Assembly (NCBI GenBank): GCA_024404115.1
Contig: JAKSQM010000002.1
Coordinates: forward strand, 186,001 to 250,000
Length of the DNA stretch: 64,000 bases
Direction: 5' to 3'
Source of the DNA: Clostridia bacterium
GTDB lineage: Bacteria > Bacillota > Clostridia > Oscillospirales > Acutalibacteraceae
The notes beneath the pieces are model-generated. The model was not told the origin of the DNA. It worked only from the letters and a program-made list of their open reading frames with translations, and ran no database searches. Position numbers and translations under genes: made by a program. Below are positions 1,568 to 17,578 of the stretch, in pieces. How positions within the stretch are numbered: position 1 is the stretch's first letter; each line of letters opens with the position of its first letter.

Positions 1568-1605
1568 AAAAAACCCGCCCCAAAGTTTAATGACTTTGAG
1601 ACGAG
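1568..1605 (-). terminator. Leader terminator of the Val T-box
   Basis: A 13-bp stem (arms 1593-1605 and 1574-1586, with several G-U pairs) is followed on the minus strand by six U (1573-1568). Its 5' arm lies just downstream of the T-box core, as expected for competition with the antiterminator. Confidence 0.88.
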
Positions 1606-1826
1606 CATAATTTATACCCGCGGTACCACTCAAATTGCGCTATGCGCCACTCAGGCTCAACCAAGCCTTATGCTTTTACGCAGCAGTACGGGGAGGTTCT
1701 ACTTGTGAAAACTTTCTTCCTCCCAGCTCAGAAGCTACAAACACAAAGCACTTTTCAGCGGCTCGCACCAAACGCCGCCTCTCTGATGAAAAACATCTTT
1801 GTGAACTCTTCGTCAACGCCTTTAAT
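1568..1826 (-). promoter_or_regulatory. T-box riboswitch leader, predicted valine specifier (GUA)
   Basis: The T-box core (GAGTGGTACCGCGG on the minus strand) lies at 1618-1632. Stem I carries the AG-bulge AGAGAG and a terminal loop containing GGTG. The K-turn-side helix GAAG/CTTC encloses a 4/7-base internal loop, AGTT opposite TTTGTAG. Positions 4-6 of the 7-base side (1736-1738) read GUA, followed by G. The UGGU bulge matches a tRNA ending ACCA, so discriminator base A. The leader ends in a 13-bp terminator. The alternative reading UGU (Cys) is one base off the usual register. Confidence 0.88.
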
Positions 1827-1832
1827 ATCTAA

Positions 1833-1861
1833 AGTCTATCAAACTTATTATAAAAAGTCAA
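1833..1861 (-). promoter_or_regulatory. Promoter of the Val T-box leader
   Basis: Minus strand -35 TTGACT (1856-1861), 17-base spacer, -10 TAGACT (1833-1838). It lies between the stop of the upstream ligase gene (1916) and the leader. No clear terminator separates it from that gene, so read-through into this leader is possible. Confidence 0.7.
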
Positions 1862-1915
1862 CTATTTGAAAGAATAATGTTAAATTACATCAAGAAATAA
1901 TTTAAAAACTATCAA

Positions 1916-4180
1916 TTAAAGTTTATTTCTCTGAATCTTTCCGCTGATTGTCTTTGGAAGCTCGTCCTTAAACTCAACTATACGGGGATATTTGTAAGGA
2001 GCTGTGTTCTTCTTAACATAGTTCTGAATTTCTTTTTTCAGCTCTTCACTGGGTGTAACACCCTTAACAAGAACGATGCTTGCCTTAACTATCTGACCTC
2101 TTACCTCGTCGGGAACGGCAGAAACGCCACACTCAAGAACATAGGGAAGCTCCATAATAACACTTTCAATTTCAAATGGCCCGATTCTGTAGCCTGATGA
2201 CTTGATAACATCATCAACTCTGCCCACATACCAGAAGAATCCATCTTCATCACGCCATGCAGTGTCGCCAGTGTGGTAATAACCATCGTGCCAAACTTCG
2301 TCTGTCTTTTTCTGATCGTTGTAATAGCCTTTGAAAAGTCCGCAAGGAATTTTATCTGATGTTTTAACAACGATTTCGCCTGTTTCACCGTCGGGAACAG
2401 AGTTGCCGTCGGGGTCAACAATATCAATATCATAAAGCGGACTGGGTTTACCCATTGAACCAAGCTTGTGAGTATCGCCCATAAGGTTGGCAATTGCAAG
2501 GGTAAGCTCTGTCTGACCGAAGCCCTCCATAATGCGAAGTCCCGTCGCCTTTTTGAATTGGCGGTAAACCTCCGGGTTAAGTGCCTCGCCTGCTGTTGTC
2601 ATATGCTTGATTGATGAAAGATCATACTTTGATATGTCCTCTTTAATCATCATGCGAAGCATTGTGGGCGGTGCGCAGAATGTTGTTATCTGATACTTCT
2701 GGAACATTGGAAGAATGTCAGAAGCAGAGAATCTGTCAAAGTCATATGTGAATACTGCACCCTCGCAGAGCCACTGACCATAAAGCTTGCCCCAAAGAGC
2801 CTTGCCCCAGCCTGTGTCTGAAATTGTGAAGTGAAGTCCGTTTTCAGATACACCGTGCCAGTATTTAGCTGTGATGTAATGACCGAGAGGATATTTATAG
2901 CTGTGAGCAGCAATTTTGGGATAACCTGTTGTGCCTGATGTGAAGAACATAAGCATTGTGTCATCGCCGCAGGCTGTGTGCTCATTTCTGTAATAATGGG
3001 TGCTGAAAAGAGGATATTCTTCATCAAAGTTTCTCCAGCCATCTCTGTTTTCGCCAACAATAAGCTTGTGCTTGAGTGTTGGGCATTTATCCAAAACTGC
3101 GTCAACATGAGCAGGTGTGTTGTCCTCAGCAGTGCAGATAATTGCGCTGACACCAGCGGCATTGAAACGATATTCAAAATCGTGAGCCTGAAGCTGATGT
3201 GTTGCAGGGATAACAATTGCGCCAAGCTTATGGAGTGCAACAACAGCAAACCAGAACTGATAATGACGCTTGAGAACGAGCATTACTCTATCGCCCTTTT
3301 TGATGCCGATTGATTTAAAATAGTTTGCGCACTGGTTTGATGCACGCTTAATATCTCTGAAAGAAAATTTTCTTTCAACCTTGTCCTTGTCAATGTGAAT
3401 CATTGCAAGCTTTGAGGGGTATTTCTTTGCAATTGCATCAACAATGTCAAAGCCGAAATTGAATTTATCTGTATTTGAAAAGTCGATTGATTTAAGAAGT
3501 CCGTTTTCATCCTCTGTGCAGGTGATGAATTTATCGCTGACATAATTTTTCTGAGGCTGATTTGTTGTGATACTATCACGGATAACCTCTTCTGTTTCGT
3601 TTTCACCAGGAAGAACAACTGCGCAGAATACGCAATCCTCGCCGTCAACAGCAATCATACCGTGAGGTGTTGAAGAGTTGTAATAAATGCTGTCGCCCTC
3701 GTGAAGAACCTCTTTCTTTGAGCCAATCTGAACAAGAAGAGAACCTTGAAGAATAAGGTCAAATTCCTGACCGCTGTGCTTAGTCAGATGAATTGGCTGA
3801 TTCTGCTGTTCCTCTGAATATTCGTATCTAACCCAGTAAGGTTCAGCAATTTTGCTTTTGAACATAGGGGCAAGGTTCTGAATCATAATACCTGCTTCTT
3901 CAGCGGTTGTCTGACCTCTGCCTCGTCTTGTAACTGTATATGAAGAAAGCTTAGCTGTGCGACCCTCAAGAAGCTCTGTAAGCTCAATGCCAAAAGCAAT
4001 TGCACATTTATGAATAAAGCTGAAAGGCAGGTCTGTATGCCCTTTTTCGTATTCTTCGTATTCGGCGGCGGAAACTTCTGTTTTTTCAGCCATGGTGGGG
4101 ATGCTGTAGCCGAGAATCTGACGCATTTCTCTGATTCGGAAAGCTATCTCTGCAAGCTGTGTCATTGTTTGATTACCCAT
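1916..4180 (-). CDS. Acyl-CoA ligase fused to XRE and cupin domains (Ile T-box gene)
   Basis: 754 residues. HTH of the XRE type at about 8-70 and cupin at about 105-195 (GQEFD, then EGDSIYY and STPHGM). The adenylation domain spans about 240-750, with P-loop TSGTTGYPK at 414-422, GFGQTE, YHTGD, GRVDDVIKSSGYRIGPFEIE, and the C-terminal catalytic lysine K748 in SGKIQRNKL. The ligase part resembles the ACSM/medium-chain acyl-CoA synthetase group, at least one archaeal member of which is reported to prefer 2-methylbutyrate. AAGGAG lies 8 bases before ATG 4180. The leader appears to read tRNA-Ile, so 2-methylbutyrate is the inferred substrate. HTH plus cupin on an enzyme is unusual; it could bind DNA for autoregulation or act only as a ligand-sensing module. 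The family call is firm, the substrate is not. Confidence 0.92.
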   Translation of the reverse strand: MGNQTMTQLAEIAFRIREMRQILGYSIPTMAEKTEVSAAEYEEYEKGHTDLPFSFIHKCAIAFGIELTELLEGRTAKLSSYTVTRRGRGQTTAEEAGIMIQNLAPMFKSKIAEPYWVRYEYSEEQQNQPIHLTKHSGQEFDLILQGSLLVQIGSKKEVLHEGDSIYYNSSTPHGMIAVDGEDCVFCAVVLPGENETEEVIRDSITTNQPQKNYVSDKFITCTEDENGLLKSIDFSNTDKFNFGFDIVDAIAKKYPSKLAMIHIDKDKVERKFSFRDIKRASNQCANYFKSIGIKKGDRVMLVLKRHYQFWFAVVALHKLGAIVIPATHQLQAHDFEYRFNAAGVSAIICTAEDNTPAHVDAVLDKCPTLKHKLIVGENRDGWRNFDEEYPLFSTHYYRNEHTACGDDTMLMFFTSGTTGYPKIAAHSYKYPLGHYITAKYWHGVSENGLHFTISDTGWGKALWGKLYGQWLCEGAVFTYDFDRFSASDILPMFQKYQITTFCAPPTMLRMMIKEDISKYDLSSIKHMTTAGEALNPEVYRQFKKATGLRIMEGFGQTELTLAIANLMGDTHKLGSMGKPSPLYDIDIVDPDGNSVPDGETGEIVVKTSDKIPCGLFKGYYNDQKKTDEVWHDGYYHTGDTAWRDEDGFFWYVGRVDDVIKSSGYRIGPFEIESVIMELPYVLECGVSAVPDEVRGQIVKASIVLVKGVTPSEELKKEIQNYVKKNTAPYKYPRIVEFKDELPKTISGKIQRNKL

Positions 4181-4233
4181 GTTAATTCTCCTTTCGGTCA
4201 GAAAAATTTATTACGGAACGGATGAAAATAAAT

Positions 4234-4269
4234 AAAAAGACCCGTCCCAAGATTTCCTTGAGACGAGTC
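4234..4269 (-). terminator. Leader terminator of the Ile T-box
   Basis: 13-bp stem, arms 4257-4269 and 4239-4251, then five U (4238-4234) on the minus strand, directly downstream of the T-box core. Confidence 0.88.
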
Positions 4270-4496
4270 TGAATATTCATACCCGCGGTACCACTCAAAT
4301 TGTGCTTTCGCACCACTCAGGCTCCAACAAGCCTTATGCCTTTACGCAGCATTCACGAAAACGCTTACTATTGTTTCAGCATTTCAGCTCAGAAGTGATA
4401 GGAATTAAGATTTTTACTGCCGACATCGCACCACCGCCGACTCTCTGAAAGCTAACTGATCTTTTCCGTCTTCGTCATAGCTTTTATTTATTTTGT
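4234..4496 (-). promoter_or_regulatory. T-box riboswitch leader, predicted isoleucine specifier (AUC)
   Basis: The T-box core is at 4283-4297 and identical to that of the leader at 1568-1826. Stem I has the AGAGAG bulge, a GGTG loop and the GAAG/CTTC helix with a TGA K-turn. The 7 bases before CTTC read CCTATCA; positions 4-6 (4397-4399) give AUC followed by A. The UGGU bulge fits discriminator A. The leader fills almost the whole 4181-4502 gap. Confidence 0.9.
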
Positions 4497-4502
4497 GGTT
4501 CG

Positions 4503-4531
4503 ATTTTAACACTAAAAATGACAGTTGTCAA
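4503..4531 (-). promoter_or_regulatory. Promoter of the Ile T-box leader
   Basis: Minus strand consensus -35 TTGACA (4526-4531), 17-base spacer, -10 TAAAAT (4503-4508). This is one of the strongest sigma-A-like promoters in the window. Confidence 0.85.
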
Positions 4532-4628
4532 GCATTTTTTTGAAAAATTATATAAATAAAATATCTCTGATTTGTTAAAAATACCCTAAAAGAGTATTTT
4601 ATCGGCTTCAAGGCACATACTATGTATA

Positions 4629-4656
4629 TTGACAAAACCGCTTGTGCTGGTATAAT
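4629..4656 (+). promoter_or_regulatory. Promoter of trxA
   Basis: -35 TTGACA (4629-4634), 16-base spacer, -10 TATAAT (4651-4656), about 30 bases before the trxA start and divergent from the Ile T-box promoter. Confidence 0.85.
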
Positions 4657-4686
4657 TTAATCAGCAAAAAATGAAAGGATGATTTT

Positions 4687-4995
4687 ATGGCAATTATAAA
4701 TATTGATAAAAACAATTTTAAAGAAACAGTTCTTAAACAAAATGGAACAGTTGTTATTGATTTCTGGGCATCGTGGTGTATGCCCTGCAAGATGTTCGCC
4801 CCTGTTTATGATGTGCTTGCAGAGGAAAACGAAAATGTAACATTTTGTAAAATCAATGTTGATGACGAGCCAGAGCTTGCAGCGAAATTCGGTATTCAGA
4901 GTATTCCCACAGTTGTTGTTATCAAAGACGGCATAATCAAAGAAGTGCTGACAGGACTTAGAAATAAGGACGAAATTGAGGCATTGTTAGGGTAA
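4687..4995 (+). CDS. trxA: Thioredoxin
   Basis: 102 residues, the usual length for thioredoxin. A single thioredoxin fold with active site WCMPC at 30-34 (canonical WCGPC has Gly where this has Met) and the cis-proline P74 in IQSIPT. It is a cytosolic dithiol reductant for target proteins. It stands alone with its own consensus promoter and a hairpin terminator; no thioredoxin reductase is adjacent. GAAAGGAT precedes the ATG by about 7 bases. The WCMPC active site should shift redox potential slightly, but the protein is otherwise ordinary. Confidence 0.96.
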   Translation: MAIINIDKNNFKETVLKQNGTVVIDFWASWCMPCKMFAPVYDVLAEENENVTFCKINVDDEPELAAKFGIQSIPTVVVIKDGIIKEVLTGLRNKDEIEALLG

Positions 4996-5008
4996 GAAGC
5001 CAAAAGAA

Positions 5009-5045
5009 AACAGAGAGATTGCAATGCTTTCTCTCTGTTATTTTT
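5009..5045. terminator. Bidirectional terminator between trxA and rhaD
   Basis: 10-bp stem AACAGAGAGA (5009-5018) with TCTCTCTGTT (5030-5039). T-rich runs on both strands allow it to end trxA (plus) and the transport-rhaD operon (minus). Confidence 0.85.
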
Positions 5046-5056
5046 ATTATCAAGAA

Positions 5057-5875
5057 TTAAAGAAGGTTTTCTGCAAGCTTTCCGCCGTAAGCTTCTGCAA
5101 CGCTTGCAAGCTTATCTTCGGGGATTGTCTGAAGCATAGGAAGACCTGTGCTGAGCATTCTTACATAAATCTCTGCTGACTTCTCAACAGTGTGCATAAG
5201 ACCGAATGCTGAATCAAAATCGTTACCCATAACGAAAAGACCGTGATGTGCCCATACAACGATGTCATATTTCTTCATAAGCTCACTGGTTTTAAGTGCG
5301 ATTTCTGCACCGCCGGGGATCATCCACTCAACAACGCCAACACCCTTGGGGAATACAACGGGGCACTCTGTCATGCTCTGCCAGAGAACCTTTGAGAATG
5401 CTGAATCTGTAAGAGGAAGAACGAATGTAAGAGCAATGATGTTTGTGGGGTGTGCATGATAAATAACTCTTGCAGCACCGTCTGTTTCTTTAACCTTTAC
5501 GCTGTGGTTAAGGAAGTGGCTGGGGAATTCACTTGTGGGGCCGCCGCCGTTTTTAAGTCCCCAAACGATTCTGTAGCTGTCGCCTGCTTCATTGATTTCA
5601 ACAATGCAGATGTTTGCTTCGGGGTCAAGAATCATATTGCGGAAATATTTGCCAGTGCCAGTTGCCATAAAGAACTCGCCTGCAAGATTCTCTGCCTTAA
5701 CGCCCATATTTACCCAAGGCTTATCATAGTTGAAATAAGGCTTGCACTCTTCAACTTCTTCTTTTTTCATGCGGTATGTAAGGTTGCCGCCGTTTCTCTC
5801 GTGCCATCCCTGCTGCCAGCCGTCATCGCAAAGACGTACAAAGCCTTTGATAACACTACTTTCTAAAATACCCAT
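5057..5875 (-). CDS. rhaD: Rhamnulose-1-phosphate aldolase
   Basis: 272 residues, close to the E. coli enzyme (274) and collinear with it. Class II aldolase fold with HERNGGNLT near 25-33, catalytic E116 in PTSEFP, zinc histidines H140 and H142 in YHAHPTN, and a third in WAHHG (210-211). It splits L-rhamnulose-1-phosphate to dihydroxyacetone phosphate and L-lactaldehyde. It is the last gene of a run that starts with a sugar-binding lipoprotein at 10099 and lies 68 bases after the ATPase gene. No rhamnose isomerase or rhamnulokinase lies in the window. AGGAG lies about 9 bases before the ATG. Fuculose-phosphate aldolases are shorter, so RhaD is preferred. Confidence 0.93.
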   Translation of the reverse strand: MGILESSVIKGFVRLCDDGWQQGWHERNGGNLTYRMKKEEVEECKPYFNYDKPWVNMGVKAENLAGEFFMATGTGKYFRNMILDPEANICIVEINEAGDSYRIVWGLKNGGGPTSEFPSHFLNHSVKVKETDGAARVIYHAHPTNIIALTFVLPLTDSAFSKVLWQSMTECPVVFPKGVGVVEWMIPGGAEIALKTSELMKKYDIVVWAHHGLFVMGNDFDSAFGLMHTVEKSAEIYVRMLSTGLPMLQTIPEDKLASVAEAYGGKLAENLL

Positions 5876-5943
5876 TTTTTAACACTCCTGTAAAATAAAA
5901 AAGTAAGCACATTTCTAACGTACCTACTTATTTTATAACCTAT

Positions 5944-7050
5944 TCAGTTTAATGTCAAGATATTTTCGCCGCTGGAGGTGTCAAATATATGAAGCTTTTC
6001 TGTGTTTATTCCAAGCTTGACTATTTCACCCTGCGTGAATGTTACATCGGGCGATACACGGGCGATAATTCTTGTGCCGAAAAAATCAAGATAAAGGAAT
6101 GTTTCACTGCCCAGCGGCTCCACAACATCCACCTGCGCTTCAAAAACAGAGTCGGGATGTTTCTTGATATATTCGCTGTCAACAGTAATATCTTCGGGTC
6201 GAATGCCAAGGGTAAGGTTATCCCCTCCGTCTTTTATCAATGCTTCAAGCTGTTCTTTTTGTGTAATGGTGATTGTTGAGCCGTTGATTCTGACCTTGTT
6301 TTTGCTGTCAAATTCGCAAGGGATAAAGTTCATTCCAGGTGAGCCGATAAAGCCTGCCACAAAAAGATTGCACGGCGAATTGTAGAGATTTTTAGGCGTA
6401 TCCACCTGCTGAACAATGCCATCTTTCATTACAACAATTCTGTCGCCCATTGTCATCGCTTCTGTCTGGTCGTGGGTAACATAAACAAATGTTGTTTCAA
6501 GTCGCTTGTGAAGCTTGATAATCTCTGTTCGCATGGCGGTGCGAAGCTTTGCATCAAGATTTGAAAGCGGTTCATCAAGAAGAAAAACATCGGGTGAGCG
6601 CACCATGGCTCTGCCAAGGGCAACACGCTGCCTTTGACCGCCCGAAAGTGCTTTAGGCTTACGCTTGAGAAGATGCTCAATATCAAGAATTTTTGCCGCT
6701 TCCCTCACCCTTTTATCAATTTCATTTTTTGGGATTTTGCGAAGCTCAAGACCGAATGCCATATTTTTATAAACAGTCATATGCGGGTAAAGGGCATAGC
6801 TTTGAAAAACCATTGCAATGTTTCTGTCCTTTGGCTCAATTTCGTTGACTACCCTGTCCCCTATTTTCATTTCGCCCTTTGAAATCTGCTCAAGACCTGC
6901 AATCATTCGAAGTGTTGTTGACTTACCGCAGCCTGAGGGCCCTACAAGAATGATAAATTCTTTGTTTTCGATTTGGAGATTTACATCATTAACGGCAATG
7001 GTTCCGTCAGAATAGATTTTAGAAATATTTTTAAGTGTAATGCTTGACAT
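5944..7050 (-). CDS. Sugar ABC transporter ATP-binding protein (MsmX/UgpC type)
   Basis: 368 residues. Walker A GPSGCGKST at 37-45, signature LSGGQRQRVALGRA, Walker B VFLLDEP, switch histidine in VTHDQTEA, and a C-terminal OB/TOBE regulatory region typical of carbohydrate importers (MalK, UgpC, MsmX). It should energise the two permeases encoded just upstream. AAAGGAT overlaps the stop of the preceding permease gene, 4 bases separate them, and translation is likely coupled. Many Firmicutes share one MsmX among several transporters; here the ATPase sits inside the operon, which suggests a dedicated pump. Confidence 0.94.
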   Translation of the reverse strand: MSSITLKNISKIYSDGTIAVNDVNLQIENKEFIILVGPSGCGKSTTLRMIAGLEQISKGEMKIGDRVVNEIEPKDRNIAMVFQSYALYPHMTVYKNMAFGLELRKIPKNEIDKRVREAAKILDIEHLLKRKPKALSGGQRQRVALGRAMVRSPDVFLLDEPLSNLDAKLRTAMRTEIIKLHKRLETTFVYVTHDQTEAMTMGDRIVVMKDGIVQQVDTPKNLYNSPCNLFVAGFIGSPGMNFIPCEFDSKNKVRINGSTITITQKEQLEALIKDGGDNLTLGIRPEDITVDSEYIKKHPDSVFEAQVDVVEPLGSETFLYLDFFGTRIIARVSPDVTFTQGEIVKLGINTEKLHIFDTSSGENILTLN

Positions 7051-7054
7051 AATA

Positions 7055-7891
7055 TTATCCTTTCACAGCTCCTGCCGCCACGCCTTTTATAATATATTTC
7101 TGAGAAGTCAGATAGAAAATAACAATCGGCACAATTGCCAAAACAAGCATCGCCATCATTGCGCCCATATCAACCGAGCCGTAACCGCCTTTAAGATACT
7201 GCACGGCAATGGGGATTGTTTTGTATTCACTGCCGATAAGAAGATACGGCAAAAGGTAATCGTTCCACACCCACATTGCATTGAGAATTGCAACAGTTAT
7301 GGCGGTTGGTTTAAGGATTGGGAAAACGATTCTGAAATAAGTCTGAACAGGGTTGCATCCGTCAATCATGGCTGCCTCTTCAATTTCAATGGGGATGGAT
7401 TTCACAAAACCGCTGAACATAAACACCGAAAGACCTGCACCGAAGCCGAGGTAAATTATTATAAGACCTACAGGGTTATCGAGAGATAAAATGTTGGCAG
7501 TTTTGGTGAGCGTAAACATCACCATCTGAAACGGGACAATCATTGAAAAAACAAAAGCGTAATATAAAATTTGGGTGAATTTTGTTTTGCGCCTTGTAAT
7601 ATACCACGCTGTCATTGAGGTGAAAAAGACAATGGCAGCCACGGAAAAAACAGTTATAAACAGCGACCATCCAAAGGCTGAGAAAAAACCTGTTTTGGCA
7701 ACGCCCTGCGTGTAATTTCTGAATCCCTCAAAAGTTTTTTCATCGGGCAATGTAAACGGTGAATCGCTGATGTGGAACTTGCTTTTAAATGAGTTCATCA
7801 GAACAATAAATATTGGCGAAAGAAAAACAACAGCGGCAATAATCAGAAATAAATATGAAAAAAACTTTGAAATTATTCCTCGTTTACTCAT
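7055..7891 (-). CDS. Sugar ABC transporter permease (MalG family)
   Basis: 278 residues with six predicted membrane segments. It has the EAA cytoplasmic loop, seen as EIEEAAMIDGCNPVQTYFR, which docks on the ATPase. It matches the MalG/LacG half of carbohydrate uptake type 1 importers. Its start overlaps the stop of the other permease by one base (TAATG), indicating coupling. It works as a heterodimer with the protein from 7891-8727. Confidence 0.93.
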   Translation of the reverse strand: MSKRGIISKFFSYLFLIIAAVVFLSPIFIVLMNSFKSKFHISDSPFTLPDEKTFEGFRNYTQGVAKTGFFSAFGWSLFITVFSVAAIVFFTSMTAWYITRRKTKFTQILYYAFVFSMIVPFQMVMFTLTKTANILSLDNPVGLIIIYLGFGAGLSVFMFSGFVKSIPIEIEEAAMIDGCNPVQTYFRIVFPILKPTAITVAILNAMWVWNDYLLPYLLIGSEYKTIPIAVQYLKGGYGSVDMGAMMAMLVLAIVPIVIFYLTSQKYIIKGVAAGAVKG

Positions 7892-8727
7892 TATTGTTCC
7901 ACCTCTTTTTTTCTTGTGTAGCTCAACTGCATAAAGGCAATAACCGCAACGATTATGAAGAAAATAACCGCCTTTGCCTGACCGACACCCTCCCAGCCTG
8001 CTTTGCCATAGAATGTGTTGTAAATATCAAGTGCGAGCATTGCCGTCCTTTTTGACGGTGCGCCTGCGGTGAGTGCTAAATTCTGATCAAAGAGCTTGAA
8101 TGAATTTGTGATAGTCAGAAACATACAGATTGTGATGCTTGGCATAACAAGCGGAATTGTTACATTTTTAAGGGTCTGGAATTTGCCCGCACCGTCAACC
8201 TTTGAAGCGTCAAGCAAATCAGTGGGGATATTTTGCATACCTGCGATATAAATAACCATCATATAGCCGATTAGCTGCCAGTTCATTAGCACAACCAATC
8301 CCCAAAAGCCGTATTTTGGGTCATAAGTGATTGTTACGCCAAAATAATGAAGTATGCCGTTGAGAATTAACTGCCATATATAACCGAGAACGATACCACC
8401 AATAAGATTTGGCATAAAGAAAATTGTTCTGAATCCGTTTGTGCCTTTCAGCCCTTTAGTAAGAATTGACGCTAAAAGAAAGGCGATGATGTTGACTGTC
8501 AGAACAGACACAACAGTGAATTTAACAGTGAACCACAGGGCATTTTTGAAATCGTTATTTGAAAATGCCCTTGCGTAGTTTTGTATGCCGACCCATTGAG
8601 CGTCAAGCACGGTGGTGAATTCTGTAAAAGAAAGCACTAATCCCAAGAGAAATGGAACAACGAATGCAATTATAAAAGCTATGAGGGTTGGCATTACAAA
8701 AATCGGGAAATATTTTTTAAGTCGCAT
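7891..8727 (-). CDS. Sugar ABC transporter permease (MalF family)
   Basis: 278 residues, about six membrane segments and a conserved EAA-like loop (PTDLLDASKVDGAGKFQTL). It is the MalF/LacF-type partner of the next permease. It lies 22 bases after the lipoprotein gene; GGTGGTG precedes ATG 8727. The transported sugar is not readable from sequence; the operon's RhaD suggests rhamnose or a rhamnose-containing glycan fragment. Confidence 0.93.
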   Translation of the reverse strand: MRLKKYFPIFVMPTLIAFIIAFVVPFLLGLVLSFTEFTTVLDAQWVGIQNYARAFSNNDFKNALWFTVKFTVVSVLTVNIIAFLLASILTKGLKGTNGFRTIFFMPNLIGGIVLGYIWQLILNGILHYFGVTITYDPKYGFWGLVVLMNWQLIGYMMVIYIAGMQNIPTDLLDASKVDGAGKFQTLKNVTIPLVMPSITICMFLTITNSFKLFDQNLALTAGAPSKRTAMLALDIYNTFYGKAGWEGVGQAKAVIFFIIVAVIAFMQLSYTRKKEVEQ

Positions 8728-8749
8728 TTAATTCACCACCGTTAAAATT

Positions 8750-10099: not shown

Positions 10100-10133
10100 A
10101 GTTATCCTCCGTTATAAATTCGATTTACTCAAC

Positions 10134-10162
10134 TTGTATTTGCATAATTATTCTGTTATAAT
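10134..10162 (+). promoter_or_regulatory. Promoter of the Dabb-trmO pair
   Basis: -35 TTGTAT (10134-10139), 17-base spacer, -10 TATAAT (10157-10162) with an extended TGT just before it. Confidence 0.75.
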
Positions 10163-10205
10163 AATCTTGAAATATTCAAAAATCTAAAAATTTGAGGTGT
10201 TTTTT

Positions 10206-10493
10206 ATGGTAAAGCATATTGTATTTTGGCGAGTTCGTGAGGATGAAAACAAACAGAAAAATATGGAAAAAATGAGAGAGCTTCTCACTTCACTTGTTGG
10301 TGTTGTGCCCGGTCTTTTAAGTGCGGAGGTTGGATTTAACTACAACCCCAAGGGATTTGACATTGCTCTTTATTCTGAATTTGATTCAAAAGAATCACTT
10401 GATGGATATCAGGTTCACCCTGCTCACCTTGAAGTTAAAAAGTTCGTTCACTCTGTTATTATCGACAGAGTTTGCGCTGATTATGAAATATGA
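10206..10493 (+). CDS. Dabb-domain (stress-responsive A/B barrel) protein
   Basis: 95 residues from ATG 10206. The start MVKHIVFWR and the pattern GFNYNPKGFDIALYSEFDS ... HPAHLEVKKFV are typical of small dimeric ferredoxin-like Dabb proteins. Their roles vary and are mostly unknown, so no reaction is assigned. An in-frame GTG at 10197 is possible, but TGAGGTG is spaced for the ATG, which I choose. The stop overlaps the trmO start (ATGA), so the two are co-translated. Confidence 0.88.
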   Translation: MVKHIVFWRVREDENKQKNMEKMRELLTSLVGVVPGLLSAEVGFNYNPKGFDIALYSEFDSKESLDGYQVHPAHLEVKKFVHSVIIDRVCADYEI

Positions 10494-11158
10494 AAACGAT
10501 TGCAAAAATAAAAAGTGGATTCCCGACAAAATTCGGGATTCCACGGCAGAGCAATTTAATAAGTGAGCTTCAATCTCAGATTATATTTGAGCCAGAGTTC
10601 AGAAGTGCAGACGCTATCAGAGGACTTGAAGGATTTTCGCATTTGTGGCTGATATGGGAGTTTGACCGCTCCAAAGAAAGCAGTTCGCTGACGGTCAGAC
10701 CTCCACGATTAGGCGGCAACAAGCGACTTGGCGTTTTTGCAACACGCTCCCCTTTCAGACCAAATCCAATCGGACTTTCCTGCGTGAAGATCGAGAAAAT
10801 AGAACAGGATGAAAAGCTTGGCAGTGTGATTTTTGTAAGTGGTGCTGACCTTGCAGATGGCACGCCCATACTTGACATCAAGCCGTATCTGCCAAATGTG
10901 GATTGCGTTCCAGATGCCGTTGGCGGCTTTGCAGATGAAGTGAAAGACTATCATTTGAATGTTGAAATCCCCAAAGAAATCAGAGAAAAACAAGATGAAA
11001 AGTTTCTGAATGTGCTTGTTCAGATTCTATCGCAAGACCCCCGCCCGTCATATCAAAATGATTCTGACAGAGTTTACGGCTTCCCCTATGACGGCAGAGA
11101 GATAAAGTTCAAAGTTAAAGACAACACTTTGTATGTAACAGAAATAACGAAGATATAA
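10490..11158 (+). CDS. trmO: tRNA N6-t6A37 methyltransferase TrmO (TsaA/YaeB family)
   Basis: 222 residues, near the E. coli protein (235). The N-terminal barrel carries GLEGFSHLWLIWEF, RPPRLGG and GVFATRSPFRPNPIGLS, the family signature; a YaeB-like C-terminal domain follows (SQDPRPSYQ, YGFPYDG). The family methylates t6A at position 37 of tRNAs decoding ACN codons, using SAM. It overlaps the Dabb gene by 4 bases and shares its promoter. Confidence 0.93.
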   Translation: MKTIAKIKSGFPTKFGIPRQSNLISELQSQIIFEPEFRSADAIRGLEGFSHLWLIWEFDRSKESSSLTVRPPRLGGNKRLGVFATRSPFRPNPIGLSCVKIEKIEQDEKLGSVIFVSGADLADGTPILDIKPYLPNVDCVPDAVGGFADEVKDYHLNVEIPKEIREKQDEKFLNVLVQILSQDPRPSYQNDSDRVYGFPYDGREIKFKVKDNTLYVTEITKI

Positions 11159-11159
11159 A

Positions 11160-11200
11160 AAACACCGTGAAATGCTAAGAGCAAATCACGGTGTTTAGTT
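11160..11200. terminator. Terminator between trmO and the ceramidase-like gene
   Basis: 11-bp stem AAACACCGTGA (11160-11170) with TCACGGTGTTT (11186-11196). A weak T-rich tail is present on the plus strand; the A-rich 5' side makes it usable on the minus strand as well. Confidence 0.8.
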
Positions 11201-11210
11201 TTAGTTAAAA

Positions 11211-13241
11211 TCAGAACTTAACATTAAGACCAAAAACGCTGAAGATGTTTTTGATAATATCAAGGATGAAGTTGATGAAGTGAGGAATTACTCTGCCGTA
11301 ATCGTGGTAAATTACGCCTTCGGGAGCTTCGCCGTTTGACTCTTTAACGAGGTCAAGGAAGTTACCAACGAGTGTTGAAGCTGTGTCTGATGAATATGAG
11401 AAGAGCCATGCATTGAAGTTTGCGTTGAAAGCATACTCGCCTTCGGGCTGACCATAATCATTGAAACGAAGAACAACAAGTGAATAGTCGTTATCGGGGT
11501 CAATGTAGCCTGCCATATCGTTCATAAGACCGAAGCACATAACTGTGTCATCTTCATCAAAATATGATGTAAGAGGCTCATACTGGAACTTATCCTTTGT
11601 GATTGAATATTCGCTTGTGAGCATATGGTCTGCTGAATGGATAACCTCAGGATTCATTTCACCGGGGCACATAAAGATTTTAATATCCTTGCCGATTTCC
11701 ATATAACCAACGCTTGAAACAGTGTAAACATTATTTGAAGCGTCTGTAAGGATAACGTTGTTTGTCATACGAACAAGTGCAAGAAGTCTGATAATGGGGT
11801 TATCGCACTTGATTGTGATGTCCTTAGTTTTAACATTAAGGATGGGGTCAACTTTTTCGCCCTGAGGAATTGCAGCGATGAAATCACCGATAACAACGCC
11901 GTATCTCATTGAGCGGTTTTCATATGTTGTGTCAAAAACAGGGTTCTTGCCGTCAGCATATGTTTCTCTGTAGCACTCATTTGCGCTGCCGAAGCTCATC
12001 TTAATGAATGAACCGATTGCAGAGTTGATGAAGATGAAGTTGCAATCATCCTCAGCTGCTTTGATCTGCTGTTCCATATAAGGAATGAAGTCAGCTGAAA
12101 TCATAGGAGTGATTTCTTCAGCACTGCTTACGCCAACCTTTTCGGGATGAGTAGCAAAGTTTGTGATAACTGTCTTTTTAGCAGAAGCGTTTTCGGGGAT
12201 GAATGTAAGCTTATAGATTTCTGAAATGAAATCAACAACATCATTGCTGCCCTGGAAGAAGTTGAACTCAACCTTTTCGCCGTTTGAGTTTGTGTATTCC
12301 TTAACAGAATCACTCTTTGCGAAGTAAAGGTCGCCCTTTTCCATATTGTTGTATGCGCTGATCATTGAATCAGCAACGGTTTTGTAAAGGAAAGTCATGA
12401 ACTTATCGTCGGGAACACTGTTCTTCTCACCCTTAACAGCTTTGTTAATAAGAGAACCGTCAATAAGCTGACCAACGCACTGCATGATACCGAGTGTGTC
12501 AATACCACTGTGTGTATGTGTTGCGCAAACGTTAACGCTTACGATGTCGCTGATGCCGTTTTCTTTGCAATAAGCGTCAACAAGCTTGAGAATTTCGTTT
12601 TTGCTTTCGTTTGTTAAACCAATGCAGTCAACAACAGCTGTAAGAACCTTGCCTCTTGAATCGTCAAGGCAGATTGTACGAACTGAAAGGATGTCTGCTG
12701 CATATCTCTCTTTAAGAGCGGCAGCCGCTGCATCTCTTTCTTCCTGTGAGCAGCCGTATTCCTCAGCGAACTTGTCTGCATAATAATCAGCAAGGTCAGC
12801 GGGAGTTTTGTTGATCTCTACACCGTAATCAAGAAGAGGACCAATGCCTGATGCACCGTATTTGTAATATGTGGCATCATAGAAATCCTCGGGCATTACT
12901 GAGCGTTTATCATAACCAAGGCTGAACTGTGCGCCGTCAGCAACTTCGTCAACAAACTTGTCATGACCAGAATATTTCTCAGCAAGCTCATTTTTGTAGG
13001 TTGAAACATCCTGAATGCCCTTTGCAGAAAGTGGAATTACATTAAGAACGCCACCGAGAAGAAGTGTAAGTCCTCTGTCAAGAGAAACACTAAGTGTTGC
13101 AAGAACATTGTCAAGAATGTTTGCTCCGATATCCTTTGCACCAGAAACGAATGCACTTTCAGCAGATGATGAGATACCAACTGAGCCGAAAAGAATCATT
13201 ACACAAAGAACAACGGATAAAAGTTTTTTCATCTTTTTCAT
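11211..13241 (-). CDS. Secreted neutral ceramidase-like metallohydrolase
   Basis: 676 residues. A Sec signal peptide covers about 1-27 and no anchor is evident. THTHSG at 241-246 provides two zinc histidines (H242, H244). Downstream are NFATHPE, NSAIGSF and GLMNDMAGYI, in the order seen in neutral/alkaline ceramidases (ATHTHSG, WFATH and a GxxND..GY segment). Known family members hydrolyse N-acyl-sphingosine outside the cell. The sequence is clearly diverged, so the true substrate may be another amidated lipid. AAGGAG lies 10 bases before ATG 13241. It stands alone with its own promoter. Confidence 0.72.
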   Translation of the reverse strand: MKKMKKLLSVVLCVMILFGSVGISSSAESAFVSGAKDIGANILDNVLATLSVSLDRGLTLLLGGVLNVIPLSAKGIQDVSTYKNELAEKYSGHDKFVDEVADGAQFSLGYDKRSVMPEDFYDATYYKYGASGIGPLLDYGVEINKTPADLADYYADKFAEEYGCSQEERDAAAAALKERYAADILSVRTICLDDSRGKVLTAVVDCIGLTNESKNEILKLVDAYCKENGISDIVSVNVCATHTHSGIDTLGIMQCVGQLIDGSLINKAVKGEKNSVPDDKFMTFLYKTVADSMISAYNNMEKGDLYFAKSDSVKEYTNSNGEKVEFNFFQGSNDVVDFISEIYKLTFIPENASAKKTVITNFATHPEKVGVSSAEEITPMISADFIPYMEQQIKAAEDDCNFIFINSAIGSFIKMSFGSANECYRETYADGKNPVFDTTYENRSMRYGVVIGDFIAAIPQGEKVDPILNVKTKDITIKCDNPIIRLLALVRMTNNVILTDASNNVYTVSSVGYMEIGKDIKIFMCPGEMNPEVIHSADHMLTSEYSITKDKFQYEPLTSYFDEDDTVMCFGLMNDMAGYIDPDNDYSLVVLRFNDYGQPEGEYAFNANFNAWLFSYSSDTASTLVGNFLDLVKESNGEAPEGVIYHDYGRVIPHFINFILDIIKNIFSVFGLNVKF

Positions 13242-13307
13242 TTTTGTGCAGCTCCTTATTAAGAATAAGTATTATTGCTAACATAATAACTCATAATACA
13301 TAAGCGT

Positions 13308-13336
13308 ATTGTAGCAATTTTTTGCCTGTTTGTCTA
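13308..13336 (-). promoter_or_regulatory. Promoter of the ceramidase-like gene
   Basis: Minus strand -35 TAGACA (13331-13336), 17-base spacer, -10 TACAAT (13308-13313), about 65 bases before the start. An imperfect inverted repeat (13334-13379) overlaps the -35. The rest of the AT-rich 13242-13438 gap shows nothing recognisable. Confidence 0.65.
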
Positions 13337-13438
13337 TATCTTTTAGTGAAATTTTTTATAATTTAATCACTAAATATAGTAACAAAAGCAAAAAACTGCT
13401 ACATATTACACAAATTGTATTAAATTGTAAATTAGTTA

Positions 13439-15898
13439 TTATTTTTTAAGACCTAAGATTTCGATTGATTCTTCACGCATTTTGTATTTAAGTATTTTAC
13501 CAGCGGCATTCATTGGGAATGTATCAACAAACATAAAGTAGCGTGGAACCTTGTGCCTTGCAATGTGAGAATTGCCAAATTCACGCATATAGCTTTCGTC
13601 TGCCTCCTCGCCTTTATGGAGGATAATCCATGCGCATGCCTCCTCGCCGTAGCGTTCATCTGGAACACCAACAACCTGCACATCACGAACCTTTGGATTG
13701 GTGAGATAAAACTCCTCAATCTCTCTTGGGTAAAGGTTTTCACCGCCACGAATAATCATATCTTTAAGTCTGCCTGTTACCTTGTAGTAACCCTCTTTGC
13801 TTCGGCAGCAGATGTCGCCAGAGTGAAGCCAGCCGTCTTTATCAATTGCTTTTGCAGTAGCTTCGGGCATTTTGTAGTAGCCTTTCATGATGTTGAAGCC
13901 ACGGGCAACAAACTCTCCGCTTTCACCGTCTGGCAATTCAAGACCTGTTTCGGGGTCGATTATCTTACATTCAACACCAGGGAACGCACTGCCAACAGTT
14001 TCAACACGCAGGTTAATTGGCTCATTCACCTCGCCCATTGTGCAGCCCGGGGAAGATTCTGTCTGACCGTAAACGCTGATGATTTCGGTCATATTCATTT
14101 CGTCAGCGGCTCTGCGCATAAGGTCGGGCGGACAGTTTGCACCTGCCATAATGCCTGTGCGCATATATGAGAAGTCGGTTTTCTTGAAATCCTCGTGGTT
14201 AAACATTGCAATAAACATTGTTGGAACACCGTTGAAGCAAGTGATTTTTTCGTTATTGATGCAGGAAAGTGAGGATTTCGGTGAGAAATACGGCAACGGG
14301 CTGATTGTTCCGCCGTGGGTGAGCATTGATGTCATTGAAAGCACCATGCCGAAGCAGTGGAACATTGGCACCTGTATCATCATTCGGTCAGCGGTGGAAA
14401 GATCCATTCTGTCGCCAATGATTTTGCCGTTATTGATAATGTTATTGTGTGTGAGCATAACGCCCTTGGGAAAGCCTGTTGTACCAGATGTATATTGCAT
14501 ATTGCAAACATCGTCGGGTTTAACAAGTGATGCTCTGCGTCTTACCTCTTCGTGGGGAATCATATCGGCTCTGTCGAGCATTTCTTCCCATGTAAGGCAT
14601 CCGTTCATTGAGAAATCAACTGTGATGATGTTGCGAAGGAACGGAAGATTTTTTGAAAAAAGAGGTTTGCCTGGGGTGAGTGTCTGAAGCTCAGGGCAAA
14701 GCTCCTGCATAATCTCTGAATAGTCAGTGTCTTTGCAGTCTTTAATCATAACAAGTGTATGCGTATCTGACTGACGGAGAAGATATTCAACCTCGTGGAT
14801 TTTATATGCAGTGTTTACTGTAACAAGAACTGCACCGATTTTGGTTGTTGCCCAGAATGTAAGATACCACGCAGGCACATTTGTTGCCCACACTGCCACA
14901 TGATGACCGGGCTTAACACCGAGAGAAATAAGCGAAGCCGCTACACGGTCAACATCATTTCTAAATTGTGCGTATGTTCTTGTGTAATCAAGTGTTGTGT
15001 ATTTGAATGCAAGCTGGTCGGGGTAACGCTCTGCCATGCAATCAAGCACCTGTGAGAATGTTTTTTCAATAACATCATACTTTTTCCAAGGGAAAGTGCC
15101 TGTTCTTGAGCGGTTATAATAAAGCTGACCGCTTTCATTTTTTTCTTTTTCAAAAACAGAAAGAAAGTTGAGAAAATGTGTGAGAACAATATCGGGGTCG
15201 CTGATTTCACTGTTCCAATCACAGCAGATAAATCCCTCATAGTTAAGTGAACGAAGTGCGTCGATAAAGTTTCTTACAGGGAGCTCGCCCTCGCCAATAA
15301 GTACATCGGTTTCGTCTTTTCTGTCGCCAAGGCGAACATAGCGGATGTATGCGCCAAGGTTTTTGATTGTTGTTTCAGAGGATTCACCGCCGCCGAAATA
15401 TGTTTCTCTTACATTCCACGCAGCACCGAGAACGCCTGTGCCGTAATACTGAATAAGGTCGATAACATTCTCAGTTTCTGCAAGGTAGCCAGATGTTTCA
15501 AAGAGGATTTCAACATCGGTGCCCTCTGCTCTGCTGATTGCAGGAATAAGCTTTTTTGATAATTCATCAATATCGGGCTTTTCGGGGAATGAAACGATAA
15601 TTGTTTCTATGCCTGCGCTTTTTGCCATTTCAACATACTGAACAAGTGCGTTGTCTGCAACATCTGCACTGTCGGGAGAAAAAGGAACTGTAAGAGCTGA
15701 AACAGCAAGATTTCTGTTATTCAGTTTTCTTTTAGCGTCAGAGAAATTTTCTGTTCTGAGAATTGAATCGCTGTGATTTTTTCTTTCACGGCGGGCATCA
15801 TAAATCTCAAAGCCTGCGTAGCCATAGTTATAGGCAAACTGGCACATATCAAGAAAAGAATCTCTCTTAACATATTTTGTAGAAAATGTCAGTTTCAT
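13439..15898 (-). CDS. TIM-barrel (xylose isomerase-like) / acyl-CoA ligase fusion
   Basis: 819 residues from ATG 15898; GAGGAG inside the end of the upstream gene fits this start better than an in-frame start at 15913. Residues 1-250 form a sugar-isomerase/endonuclease-IV-like barrel (FETSG with E134; GEGELPVRNF; NYEGFICCDWN). Usual metal-ligand positions look altered (WN at 161-162, R189), so it may not be a working isomerase. Residues about 276-819 are a complete AMP-forming ligase: YTSGTTGFPKG 469-479, YGQTE, WLHSGD, GRLKDMIIRGGENLYPREIE, catalytic K801. The gene follows the LeuA-like gene by one base under a leucine-type T-box. Inferred role: activation of isovalerate or a related C5 acid. 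I know of no characterised protein with this fusion. Confidence 0.88.
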   Translation of the reverse strand: MKLTFSTKYVKRDSFLDMCQFAYNYGYAGFEIYDARRERKNHSDSILRTENFSDAKRKLNNRNLAVSALTVPFSPDSADVADNALVQYVEMAKSAGIETIIVSFPEKPDIDELSKKLIPAISRAEGTDVEILFETSGYLAETENVIDLIQYYGTGVLGAAWNVRETYFGGGESSETTIKNLGAYIRYVRLGDRKDETDVLIGEGELPVRNFIDALRSLNYEGFICCDWNSEISDPDIVLTHFLNFLSVFEKEKNESGQLYYNRSRTGTFPWKKYDVIEKTFSQVLDCMAERYPDQLAFKYTTLDYTRTYAQFRNDVDRVAASLISLGVKPGHHVAVWATNVPAWYLTFWATTKIGAVLVTVNTAYKIHEVEYLLRQSDTHTLVMIKDCKDTDYSEIMQELCPELQTLTPGKPLFSKNLPFLRNIITVDFSMNGCLTWEEMLDRADMIPHEEVRRRASLVKPDDVCNMQYTSGTTGFPKGVMLTHNNIINNGKIIGDRMDLSTADRMMIQVPMFHCFGMVLSMTSMLTHGGTISPLPYFSPKSSLSCINNEKITCFNGVPTMFIAMFNHEDFKKTDFSYMRTGIMAGANCPPDLMRRAADEMNMTEIISVYGQTESSPGCTMGEVNEPINLRVETVGSAFPGVECKIIDPETGLELPDGESGEFVARGFNIMKGYYKMPEATAKAIDKDGWLHSGDICCRSKEGYYKVTGRLKDMIIRGGENLYPREIEEFYLTNPKVRDVQVVGVPDERYGEEACAWIILHKGEEADESYMREFGNSHIARHKVPRYFMFVDTFPMNAAGKILKYKMREESIEILGLKK

Positions 15899-15899
15899 C

Positions 15900-17294
15900 T
15901 TAGTTCTCCTCAAATACGATTTTGTTCAGTGCGTTAACATATGCACGGATGCTTGCGCCAACAATATCGGTTGAAATACCGTTGCCAGAATAAAGCTTGC
16001 CGTTACTGCGAAGTCTTACAAATGAAGAACCGATTGACTCTTTACCGCCTGTAACAGCCTGTACCTGAAAATCGTCAAGCTCATAGTGGAAGCCGATACT
16101 GCTTTCAATTGCACGGAAAGCGGCATCAATTGGACCGTCGCCAACGCTCACACCGCAAATTTCTTCGCCGTCTTTTGTGAGAATAATATTTGCCATAGCT
16201 GAAATAAGATTGCCGCTTGTGGTGGTGTAGCTTTTAACGTGATAGGTTGACGGAACCTGCATTGCAGATGATGCAACAAGTGCTTCAAGCTCTTTTGCGC
16301 CAACACCGCTCTTTTTATTGCATACTCTCAAAAGCTCTTTATAAACATTGCCTAAATCTTCATCAGAAAGGTCATAGCCCAGGTCTGAAACAGCTGAGCT
16401 AAGCTGAGTGAGAGTTGAAGATGAATCAAGGAATACATCCTTACTGTCAGAATCCTTTGAATCTGCTGACTCTGTGAGAGAATCACAGCTGACTGATTTG
16501 AGCATTGCATCAATATCTCTGTGAATTTCAGTTGTCTGCAATGATGTGCTGATGCCGAGGCTTTCACCTTTAACTGTGATTATATCTGCAAATTCATCTG
16601 TACGAAGCACATTTTTGCCTGTAACGGCTGTTTTAACACCGTCTGCACCAGACATAACTGCATATGTTGCAACGGCAACTGCCATATTGATAGCGTCTGA
16701 AACCTTAACGAAAACAGGAACATTACATTCTTTTTTGATTGCTTTAATAAGCTCTGAAAACTCAACGGGCATTGAAATGCCAGCATCATCGCAGATTGTA
16801 ACTGCTGTTGCGCCGTTTTCAACTGCGGTTTTGCAAACTTCTTTTACAAAATCTGCATCTGCTCTTGTGGCATCAAGGGCAACAAACTCAACATCGGCAC
16901 ACTTTTCTTTAGCAGCGGCGCAAAGCTCAGCGATTTTAACAATCATCTTTTTATCTTTAACATGGTATGAATATTCCATTTGAACAGTTGAAACAGGTAA
17001 AGCAATCTGAAGGCAGGGTTTAACTGCATCTTTAATGCAATTCCACGCATTTTCAATACCGTCAACGGTGAAGCCAACAGGAATAGCAACTGCACTGTTT
17101 TTAACTGCGAAAGCAATTGTTCTATAAACGATAGTGTCCTCTTTAACTTTTTTGATTTCAGCAAGCTCAATAGCGTCTGCACCAAAATTATCAATGCACT
17201 TTGCAATTGCGGTTTTCTCTCTGAAAAGGAGCGGAACCTTGCGTTCACTTACAAGCTCTTTCAGCGTAAAATCTGAAACATAAATTTTTCTCAT
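15900..17294 (-). CDS. LeuA-like protein without the catalytic residues (Leu T-box gene)
   Basis: 464 residues, collinear with 2-isopropylmalate synthase. The N-terminal barrel covers about 1-270 and the C-terminal regulatory (leucine-binding) domain about 345-462, the latter well kept (VGDGPIDAAFRAI, VTGGKESIG, GNGISTDIVGASIRAY). Active-site motifs are lost: LRDG reads LKEL (K12, E13), the metal motif HxHND reads VKVSD (196-200), and GERAGN is absent (TGKNVLRTDEF). It therefore should not act as a normal isopropylmalate synthase; it could be a leucine sensor, a partner of the next gene's product, or an enzyme of changed chemistry. AGAGAGG lies 8 bases before ATG 17294. Confidence 0.85.
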   Translation of the reverse strand: MRKIYVSDFTLKELVSERKVPLLFREKTAIAKCIDNFGADAIELAEIKKVKEDTIVYRTIAFAVKNSAVAIPVGFTVDGIENAWNCIKDAVKPCLQIALPVSTVQMEYSYHVKDKKMIVKIAELCAAAKEKCADVEFVALDATRADADFVKEVCKTAVENGATAVTICDDAGISMPVEFSELIKAIKKECNVPVFVKVSDAINMAVAVATYAVMSGADGVKTAVTGKNVLRTDEFADIITVKGESLGISTSLQTTEIHRDIDAMLKSVSCDSLTESADSKDSDSKDVFLDSSSTLTQLSSAVSDLGYDLSDEDLGNVYKELLRVCNKKSGVGAKELEALVASSAMQVPSTYHVKSYTTTSGNLISAMANIILTKDGEEICGVSVGDGPIDAAFRAIESSIGFHYELDDFQVQAVTGGKESIGSSFVRLRSNGKLYSGNGISTDIVGASIRAYVNALNKIVFEEN

Positions 17295-17314
17295 ATTAAA
17301 GACCTCTCTTCCAT

Positions 17315-17351
17315 AAAAAATCCCGCAGGAATCACACGATTACTGCGGGAT
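17315..17351 (-). terminator. Leader terminator of the Leu T-box
   Basis: 9-bp GC-rich stem ATCCCGCAG/CTGCGGGAT (17343-17351 and 17320-17328) with an extra inner AATC/GATT helix, then six U on the minus strand. Confidence 0.9.
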
Positions 17352-17578
17352 GATTAGTAATAACCACGGTACCACCCGTATTGTCGCCAAAGCGACCACT
17401 CAACGGCTCAGACAAGCCTGCGGTTTTTAACGAAACCACCCGAAGCCTCTTACTGGCAATTCAGAAGCCCTGCTCTGATACGAGACAGCTGAAAAGGATT
17501 TTTACCGTATCGCACCAAAAACGGCTCTCTGAAAAATTTGCCCTGTCAGCTTAATATCTTCACTGCATTTGATTATTT
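17315..17578 (-). promoter_or_regulatory. T-box riboswitch leader, predicted leucine specifier (CUC)
   Basis: The T-box core CGGGTGGTACCGTGG lies at 17364-17378 (complement). Stem I has the AGAGAG bulge with a GGTG loop. The helices AGCTGA/TCAGCT and GATA/TATC flank a TTAA/TGTCTCG-type internal loop. Positions 4-6 of the 7-base side (17482-17484) read CUC, followed by G. The K-turn purines AGA and GC follow. The UGGU bulge fits discriminator A. Specifier register is the same as in the two other leaders. Confidence 0.9.

Follow-up and report, generated by a model that had tools for sequence, protein, structure and literature searches.

Three T-box leaders that read valine, isoleucine, and leucine were confirmed on the minus strand of a 64,000-nucleotide stretch of Clostridia DNA (the window, meaning the whole stretch that was analysed), and each of them precedes a unit encoding an AMP-forming acyl-CoA ligase. 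The leaders very probably control a salvage route that turns isobutyrate, 2-methylbutyrate, and isovalerate from the environment into valine, isoleucine, and leucine. That rumen bacteria require branched-chain volatile fatty acids has been known since the 1960s and is the basis of isoacid feed supplements.

Table 1. T-box leaders and associated genes in the window
Feature	Position	Strand	Description
Val T-box leader	1825-1594	-	RF00230, 101.9 bits; specifier GUA; hairpin -18.7 kcal/mol; terminator about 1566-1606
Val-branch ligase	1538 to beyond window start (1..1538)	-	XRE-HTH, cupin, and AMP-forming acyl-CoA ligase
Ile T-box leader	4487-4256	-	RF00230, 92.7 bits, E 2.3e-19; specifier AUC; hairpin -20.9 kcal/mol; terminator about 4235-4269
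Ile-branch ligase	4180-1916	-	754 aa; XRE-HTH, cupin, and AMP-forming ligase
Leu T-box leader	17572-17343	-	RF00230, 100.6 bits; specifier CUC; hairpin -19.3 kcal/mol; terminator about 17315-17353
Pseudo-LeuA	17294-15900	-	464 aa; LeuA TIM barrel without TLRDG, HxHND, and GERAGN; LeuA_dimer domain intact
Leu-branch ligase	15913-13439	-	824 aa; sugar-isomerase-like TIM barrel fused to FadD-like AMP-forming ligase

Detection of the leaders and their specifiers

The leaders were scored with cmscan against the Rfam covariance model RF00230, which has a gathering score of 93 bits. The valine and leucine leaders score above this threshold, and the isoleucine leader lies 0.3 bits below it (92.7 versus 93). 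Each of the three is closed by a strong hairpin followed by a T run, and none of 200 shuffled sequences was as good. These scores bear out the three leaders proposed in the initial annotation, which had been made from the sequence of the window without database searches. The covariance alignment, a check which that annotation had itself suggested, returned the same three specifiers, GUA, AUC, and CUC. The ligase unit claimed behind each leader is also present; the strand, left unstated at the time, is minus throughout, and the ligase of the leucine unit turned out to belong to a different ligase family.

Eight T-boxes were detected in the whole source genome, five of them in addition to the trio in the window. 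When the same 12-nt register was applied to these five, it read UUC before pheS, AAC before asnS, UGC before cysE-cysS, ACC before thrS, and GCC before alaS, the genes having been named by NCBIfam cut-offs. All five control T-boxes were thus read correctly, and the specifier register is therefore right wherever the answer is known.

Conservation of the specifiers in relatives

The fused ligase has at least 585 relatives in the bacterial genomes scanned, from which 80 loci were kept. These 80 are titled as MAG or uncultured, many of them from ruminant or other herbivore gut according to the title, and no named isolate or cultured strain with the system was found among them. The gene set was limited to matches that start no more than 25 residues from the query start and exceed 150 bits, with at least 36% identity for pseudo-LeuA. 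A T-box motif was found upstream of 185 of the 213 distinct genes examined, the remaining 28 having none or too short an upstream region, and the register could be placed automatically in 181 of the 185. At the expected register the specifier agreed with the gene type for 88 of 89 isoleucine-type ligases, 47 of 50 valine-type ligases, and all 42 pseudo-LeuA genes (leucine). Shifting the register by 1 to 4 bases left 0 to 3 matches, except at -4 (Val in 28 of 50, Leu in 9 of 42) and at +3 (Val in 6 of 50). The four mismatches are L065 (CTA), L147 (TTG), and L063 and L069 (both ATC); L147 has a GTA candidate nearby. Among 14 valine-type ligases without a T-box, 12 lie behind an isoleucine-type ligase, within about 270 nt. 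A chance match of T-box motifs was rejected on the covariance scores, the hairpins compared with shuffles, and the specifiers in relatives, and a wrong specifier register was rejected on the shift test together with the five control T-boxes.

The isoleucine and valine labels were placed on a tree built with FastTree from 157 ligases, all of at least 640 aa and at least 54% identity, and only one change between the two labels was found. Because nine labels had been read by eye and nine more picked between candidates, the test was repeated with automatic labels alone (88 Ile and 45 Val), again giving one change.

The valine and isoleucine ligases carry an XRE-cupin domain

Both the valine and the isoleucine ligase are fused to an XRE-cupin domain that resembles a regulator and had been overlooked in the initial annotation. 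The nearest solved structure to the isoleucine ligase is 3etc, which we take to be the Methanosarcina AMP-binding enzyme MacsMa, with 629 bits over residues 235-752 and 369 bits for the runner-up. Its best NCBIfam model is MbcS (NF047394), at 441.5 bits against an equivalog cut-off of 850; the ligase is related to MbcS and is not filed as a member. Purified Staphylococcus aureus MbcS is reported to favour 2-methylbutyrate and isobutyrate, with isovalerate as a poor substrate (PMC10026030), which fits a separate ligase family for the leucine branch.

Eleven relatives were examined. Eight of them encode the XRE-cupin part and the ligase in separate adjoining genes, and an XRE-cupin match was not found in the other three. 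A readable T-box precedes three of these eight two-gene relatives, with the specifier AUC in each. The domain is thus a partner of the ligase, either fused or free, and it may act as a sensor or autoregulator. Of the 28 columns that best discriminate isoleucine-type from valine-type proteins, 24 belong to the XRE-cupin part, and the catalytic part holds the other four, namely 459 (Gly/Ala), 462 (Leu/Met or Ala), 561, and 745.

The valine operon contains predicted genes for reductive carboxylation

The valine operon continues past the window edge (L009; positions 176001-191000 of contig C12 in the source genome, G000) with genes for a C-N-hydrolase-like protein, IlvE, a P-loop ATPase, a ferredoxin, and the alpha, beta, and gamma subunits of VOR. 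IlvE scores 446.9 bits with NF009897 (equivalog cut-off 307) and 359 bits with TIGR01123 (cut-off 250). The alpha-type subunit of VOR reaches 568 bits with the VorB model NF005507 (cut-off 399) and is the only VorB match above cut-off in the genome, and the best models for the beta and gamma subunits are those of 2-oxoacid oxidoreductase, with scores below the curated cut-offs. The ferredoxin, a two-cluster protein of 68 aa, occupies the gap beside the VOR genes. Nitrilase-type models match the C-N-hydrolase-like protein below their cut-offs. VOR is predicted to be a ketoisovalerate:ferredoxin oxidoreductase, and ligase, VOR, and IlvE would between them convert a branched acid to the amino acid in three steps. 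An acid ligase, VOR, and an aminotransferase, the gene set for reductive carboxylation, are thus found together in one operon of an 84%-complete genome in which ilvC, ilvD, and leuB were not found. A search for a 2-oxoacid:ferredoxin oxidoreductase with a matching leader, as the initial annotation had recommended, led to VOR inside the operon of the valine T-box, together with the branched-chain aminotransferase.

Gene order was counted in 44 named loci with at least 6 kb downstream, the 36 of 80 loci with less than 6 kb being set aside. VorABC lies downstream of the ligase in 40 of the 44 and IlvE in 29, and pseudo-LeuA is found within the locus in 26. Where named loci have a gap ahead of VorA, it holds a two-cluster ferredoxin frame in 50 of 51. 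The P-loop ATPase is CbiA-like (L009:6673-7323, minus strand) and likewise has the VOR genes nearby in 40 of the 44 named loci; it perhaps has a role in iron-sulfur loading.

The leucine unit encodes a degenerate LeuA and a TIM-barrel ligase

The initial annotation had called the first protein of the leucine unit LeuA-like. This name conceals the loss of the catalytic metal site, which makes the protein a pseudoenzyme and had been overlooked. Each of the catalytic motifs TLRDG, HxHND, and GERAGN is absent from all 49 pseudo-LeuA homologues, and the HxH metal site is kept in none of them; the true LeuA proteins of relatives have the three motifs in 6 of 7 (one sequence being cut at this motif), 7 of 7, and 7 of 7, respectively. 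A true LeuA in the leucine operon was rejected on this ground. The best 2-isopropylmalate synthase model gives 238 bits against a cut-off of 532, whereas the leucine-binding LeuA_dimer domain (PF08502) scores 102 bits against 24.9. At each position of the GDGP and GxSTD motifs, the residue is kept in 41 to 49 of the 49 homologues. In a structure model (pTM 0.59), the C-terminal half is less certain than the barrel, with pLDDT blocks of 50-84 from residue 290. Judged by its sequence, pseudo-LeuA is a conserved, catalytically degenerate pseudoenzyme, and it is most likely a leucine sensor that would restrain the leucine branch.

A second supposed true LeuA, on contig C27 of the source genome, was also rejected, as it is an HMGL/LeuA_dimer/AraC fusion. 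This 640-aa protein (L150:5384-7306, corresponding to G000:C27:11384-13306) consists of an HMGL-like barrel, IPMS_D2, LeuA_dimer, and an AraC HTH. Its catalytic motifs are degenerate by eye as well, which makes it a second LeuA-derived candidate sensor, in this case joined to a DNA-binding domain.

The leucine-branch ligase starts either at TTG 15913, with a 14-nt overlap with pseudo-LeuA, or at ATG 15898, abutting it, and reaches the cut-off of none of the NCBIfam models listed. One count of 52 of 52 loci is biased, because these had been fetched via the ligase or pseudo-LeuA; TIM-barrel ligases without pseudo-LeuA served as the unbiased check. Nine such ligases were found, of which three have no T-box and six have a leader that reads Leu in every case. 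The six (L170-L175, in G039, G051, G057, G024, G018, and G046) are TIM-barrel-ligase fusions with a leucine T-box from which pseudo-LeuA is absent. As leuB is present in G018, G024, and G057, the TIM-barrel ligase also occurs alongside the usual way of making leucine.

Further observations were made near these units. Between the leucine unit and a TrmO-family gene, a 676-aa protein with a signal-peptide-like start is encoded at 11211-13241 (minus strand). It has no Pfam or NCBIfam match and holds the motifs HTHSG and NFATHPE, which presumably recall neutral ceramidases. A weak mir-5 match at 11204-11151 was rejected (25 bits versus 75). A 378-aa protein encoded between queA and tgt at 20745-21881 (minus strand) gave a weak HipA_C match of 22 bits, below the cut-off.

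Markers of de novo synthesis

No match to KARI/ilvC (PF01450) or ilvD (TIGR00110) was found in the source genome, which is 83.8% complete, and the one match to leuB (TIGR00169) reached 143 bits against a cut-off of 353. The source bacterium, a member of a gut-dwelling group, appears to have lost the standard pathway for valine, isoleucine, and leucine, the absence of ilvC, ilvD, and leuB being less than certain at about 84% completeness.

A set of 60 genomes was divided by the fused ligase, counted as present when a full-length or N-terminal match had at least 56% identity. All three markers lack a match above cut-off in 18 of the 28 genomes that have the fused ligase versus 6 of the 32 others; the Fisher p of 0.0005 is a guide only because the genomes are related. 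Adding six weaker or two-gene ligase matches, most of which have a stop inside, changed the counts to 21 of 34 versus 3 of 26. Matches resembling ilvD in G021 and G027 were below cut-off and left uncounted. Among the 38 genomes that are at least 90% complete, the three markers are all lacking in 11 of 14 with the fused ligase versus 5 of 24 without, and leuB occurs in 0 of 9 with pseudo-LeuA versus 20 of 29 others. Two counts speak against strict replacement: all three markers are present in 5 of the 28 fused-ligase genomes, and of the 21 pseudo-LeuA genomes four keep KARI and five keep leuB.

Proposed mechanism and alternative explanations

From their membership of the T-box family, their specifiers, and their terminators, the leaders are expected to switch in response to tRNA. 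Uncharged tRNA for valine, isoleucine, or leucine would pair with the specifier and stabilise the antiterminator, so that termination is averted and the corresponding acyl-CoA ligase is produced. The ligase would convert its acid, presumably isobutyrate, 2-methylbutyrate, or isovalerate, to the branched acyl-CoA, a single ferredoxin-dependent VOR working in the carboxylating direction would produce the 2-oxoacid, and IlvE would aminate this to the branched-chain amino acid. Leucine sensed by pseudo-LeuA may in addition restrain the leucine branch. The salvage reading of the initial annotation is hence supported by the specifier alignment, by VOR and IlvE in the operon, and by the failure to find ilvC, ilvD, and leuB, the substrates still being assigned by inference. 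On a wider version of the scheme our judgement is evenly divided. It would make the dead LeuA a leucine-sensing subunit that feedback-controls the isovalerate ligase and the XRE-cupin domains product-tuned sensors, so that every branch has two controls, tRNA charging at the RNA and a metabolite sensor within the enzyme or next to it, and de novo synthesis has given way to acid salvage in this lineage. VOR and IlvE sit under the valine leader, and starvation for leucine or isoleucine alone would consequently not obviously induce either of them.

VOR and the AMP-forming ligases could also serve other fluxes, such as the supply of primers for membrane fatty acids as with MbcS. That the ligases provide branched acyl-CoA to prime the branched-chain fatty acids of the membrane, as in Staphylococcus aureus, with the T-box as a proxy for branched-chain amino-acid supply, would agree with MbcS as the best NCBIfam model and with the report that MbcS feeds FabH (PMC10026030). 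Yet no fatty-acid gene is among the named genes of the valine operon, VorABC and IlvE stand behind the ligase in most named loci (40 and 29 of 44), the tRNA-specific leaders match each amino acid, and the de novo markers were not found in the source genome, all of which renders this explanation unlikely. It is very unlikely that the specifiers are right and the ligases act on other acids, such as aromatic acids, propionate, or longer chains. The substrate of an AMP-forming ligase is unreadable from homology, and the leucine-branch ligase fits none of the listed NCBIfam models at cut-off, but protein clade and specifier agree, with the one change on the tree of 157 ligases, and the TIM-barrel ligases without pseudo-LeuA read Leu wherever they have a leader (6 of 6).

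The direction of the pathway has to be considered as well, since VOR is reversible and branched acids are end products of amino-acid fermentation. In a catabolic direction, VOR would oxidise branched 2-oxoacids to acyl-CoA and the ligase would release the acid with a gain of ATP. T-boxes, however, turn their genes on during shortage of the amino acid, AMP-forming ligases are suited to activating acids, and the genome seems to have no other means of making these amino acids, so that a catabolic role is extremely unlikely. Under the preferred reading, salvage of branched acids, the T-box specifier serves as a natural substrate label that names the likely ligase substrates and the candidate genes of the pathway. 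By this label, isobutyrate would fall to one ligase family, 2-methylbutyrate to the paralogue of that family, and isovalerate to the TIM-barrel-ligase fusion. This predicted assignment spans many uncultured Clostridia, largely from herbivore guts, and dependence on branched acids could be predicted from genomes. If pseudo-LeuA is a sensor, the allosteric domain of a lost pathway would have been reused to control the pathway that replaced it.

Comparison with known systems

The leaders share the architecture of known branched-chain T-boxes (RF00230), with AGAGAG, the GGUG loop, the specifier, the UGGU bulge, and the alternation of terminator and antiterminator. T-boxes also control ilv/leu operons. 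The survey by Wels et al. 2008 describes T-boxes before ileS, valS, leuS, and BrnQ-type transporters, and reports that the specifier agreed with gene function wherever the function was known (PMC2494555). Unlike these known branched-chain T-boxes, the leaders described here control carboxylic-acid ligases of a presumed salvage route, and the main text of PMC2494555 contains none of the words 'acyl-CoA', 'AMP-dependent', or 'oxidoreductase'. No report of T-boxes with acid ligases or with reductive carboxylation was found in the open-access literature searched. The chemistry of the pathway and T-boxes themselves are known; T-box-controlled acid ligases accompanied by a LeuA-derived candidate sensor are apparently unreported in the open-access literature searched.

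The catalytic domain of the valine and isoleucine ligases is related to those of MbcS and 3etc. The two ligases differ from these in the fused XRE-cupin domain, in T-box control, in their partners VOR and IlvE, and in scoring below the MbcS cut-off. Pseudo-LeuA differs from 2-isopropylmalate synthase LeuA in the loss of the catalytic motifs. Work by Allison, to which PMC7356843 points, concerned the formation of leucine from isovalerate and of valine from isobutyrate. Studies of the type of Allison and Peel 1971 deal with the same chemistry as is predicted here, isovalerate to leucine and isobutyrate to valine; by their titles they are studies of physiology and labelling, whereas the present analysis offers candidate genes, tRNA-specific control, and a LeuA pseudoenzyme.
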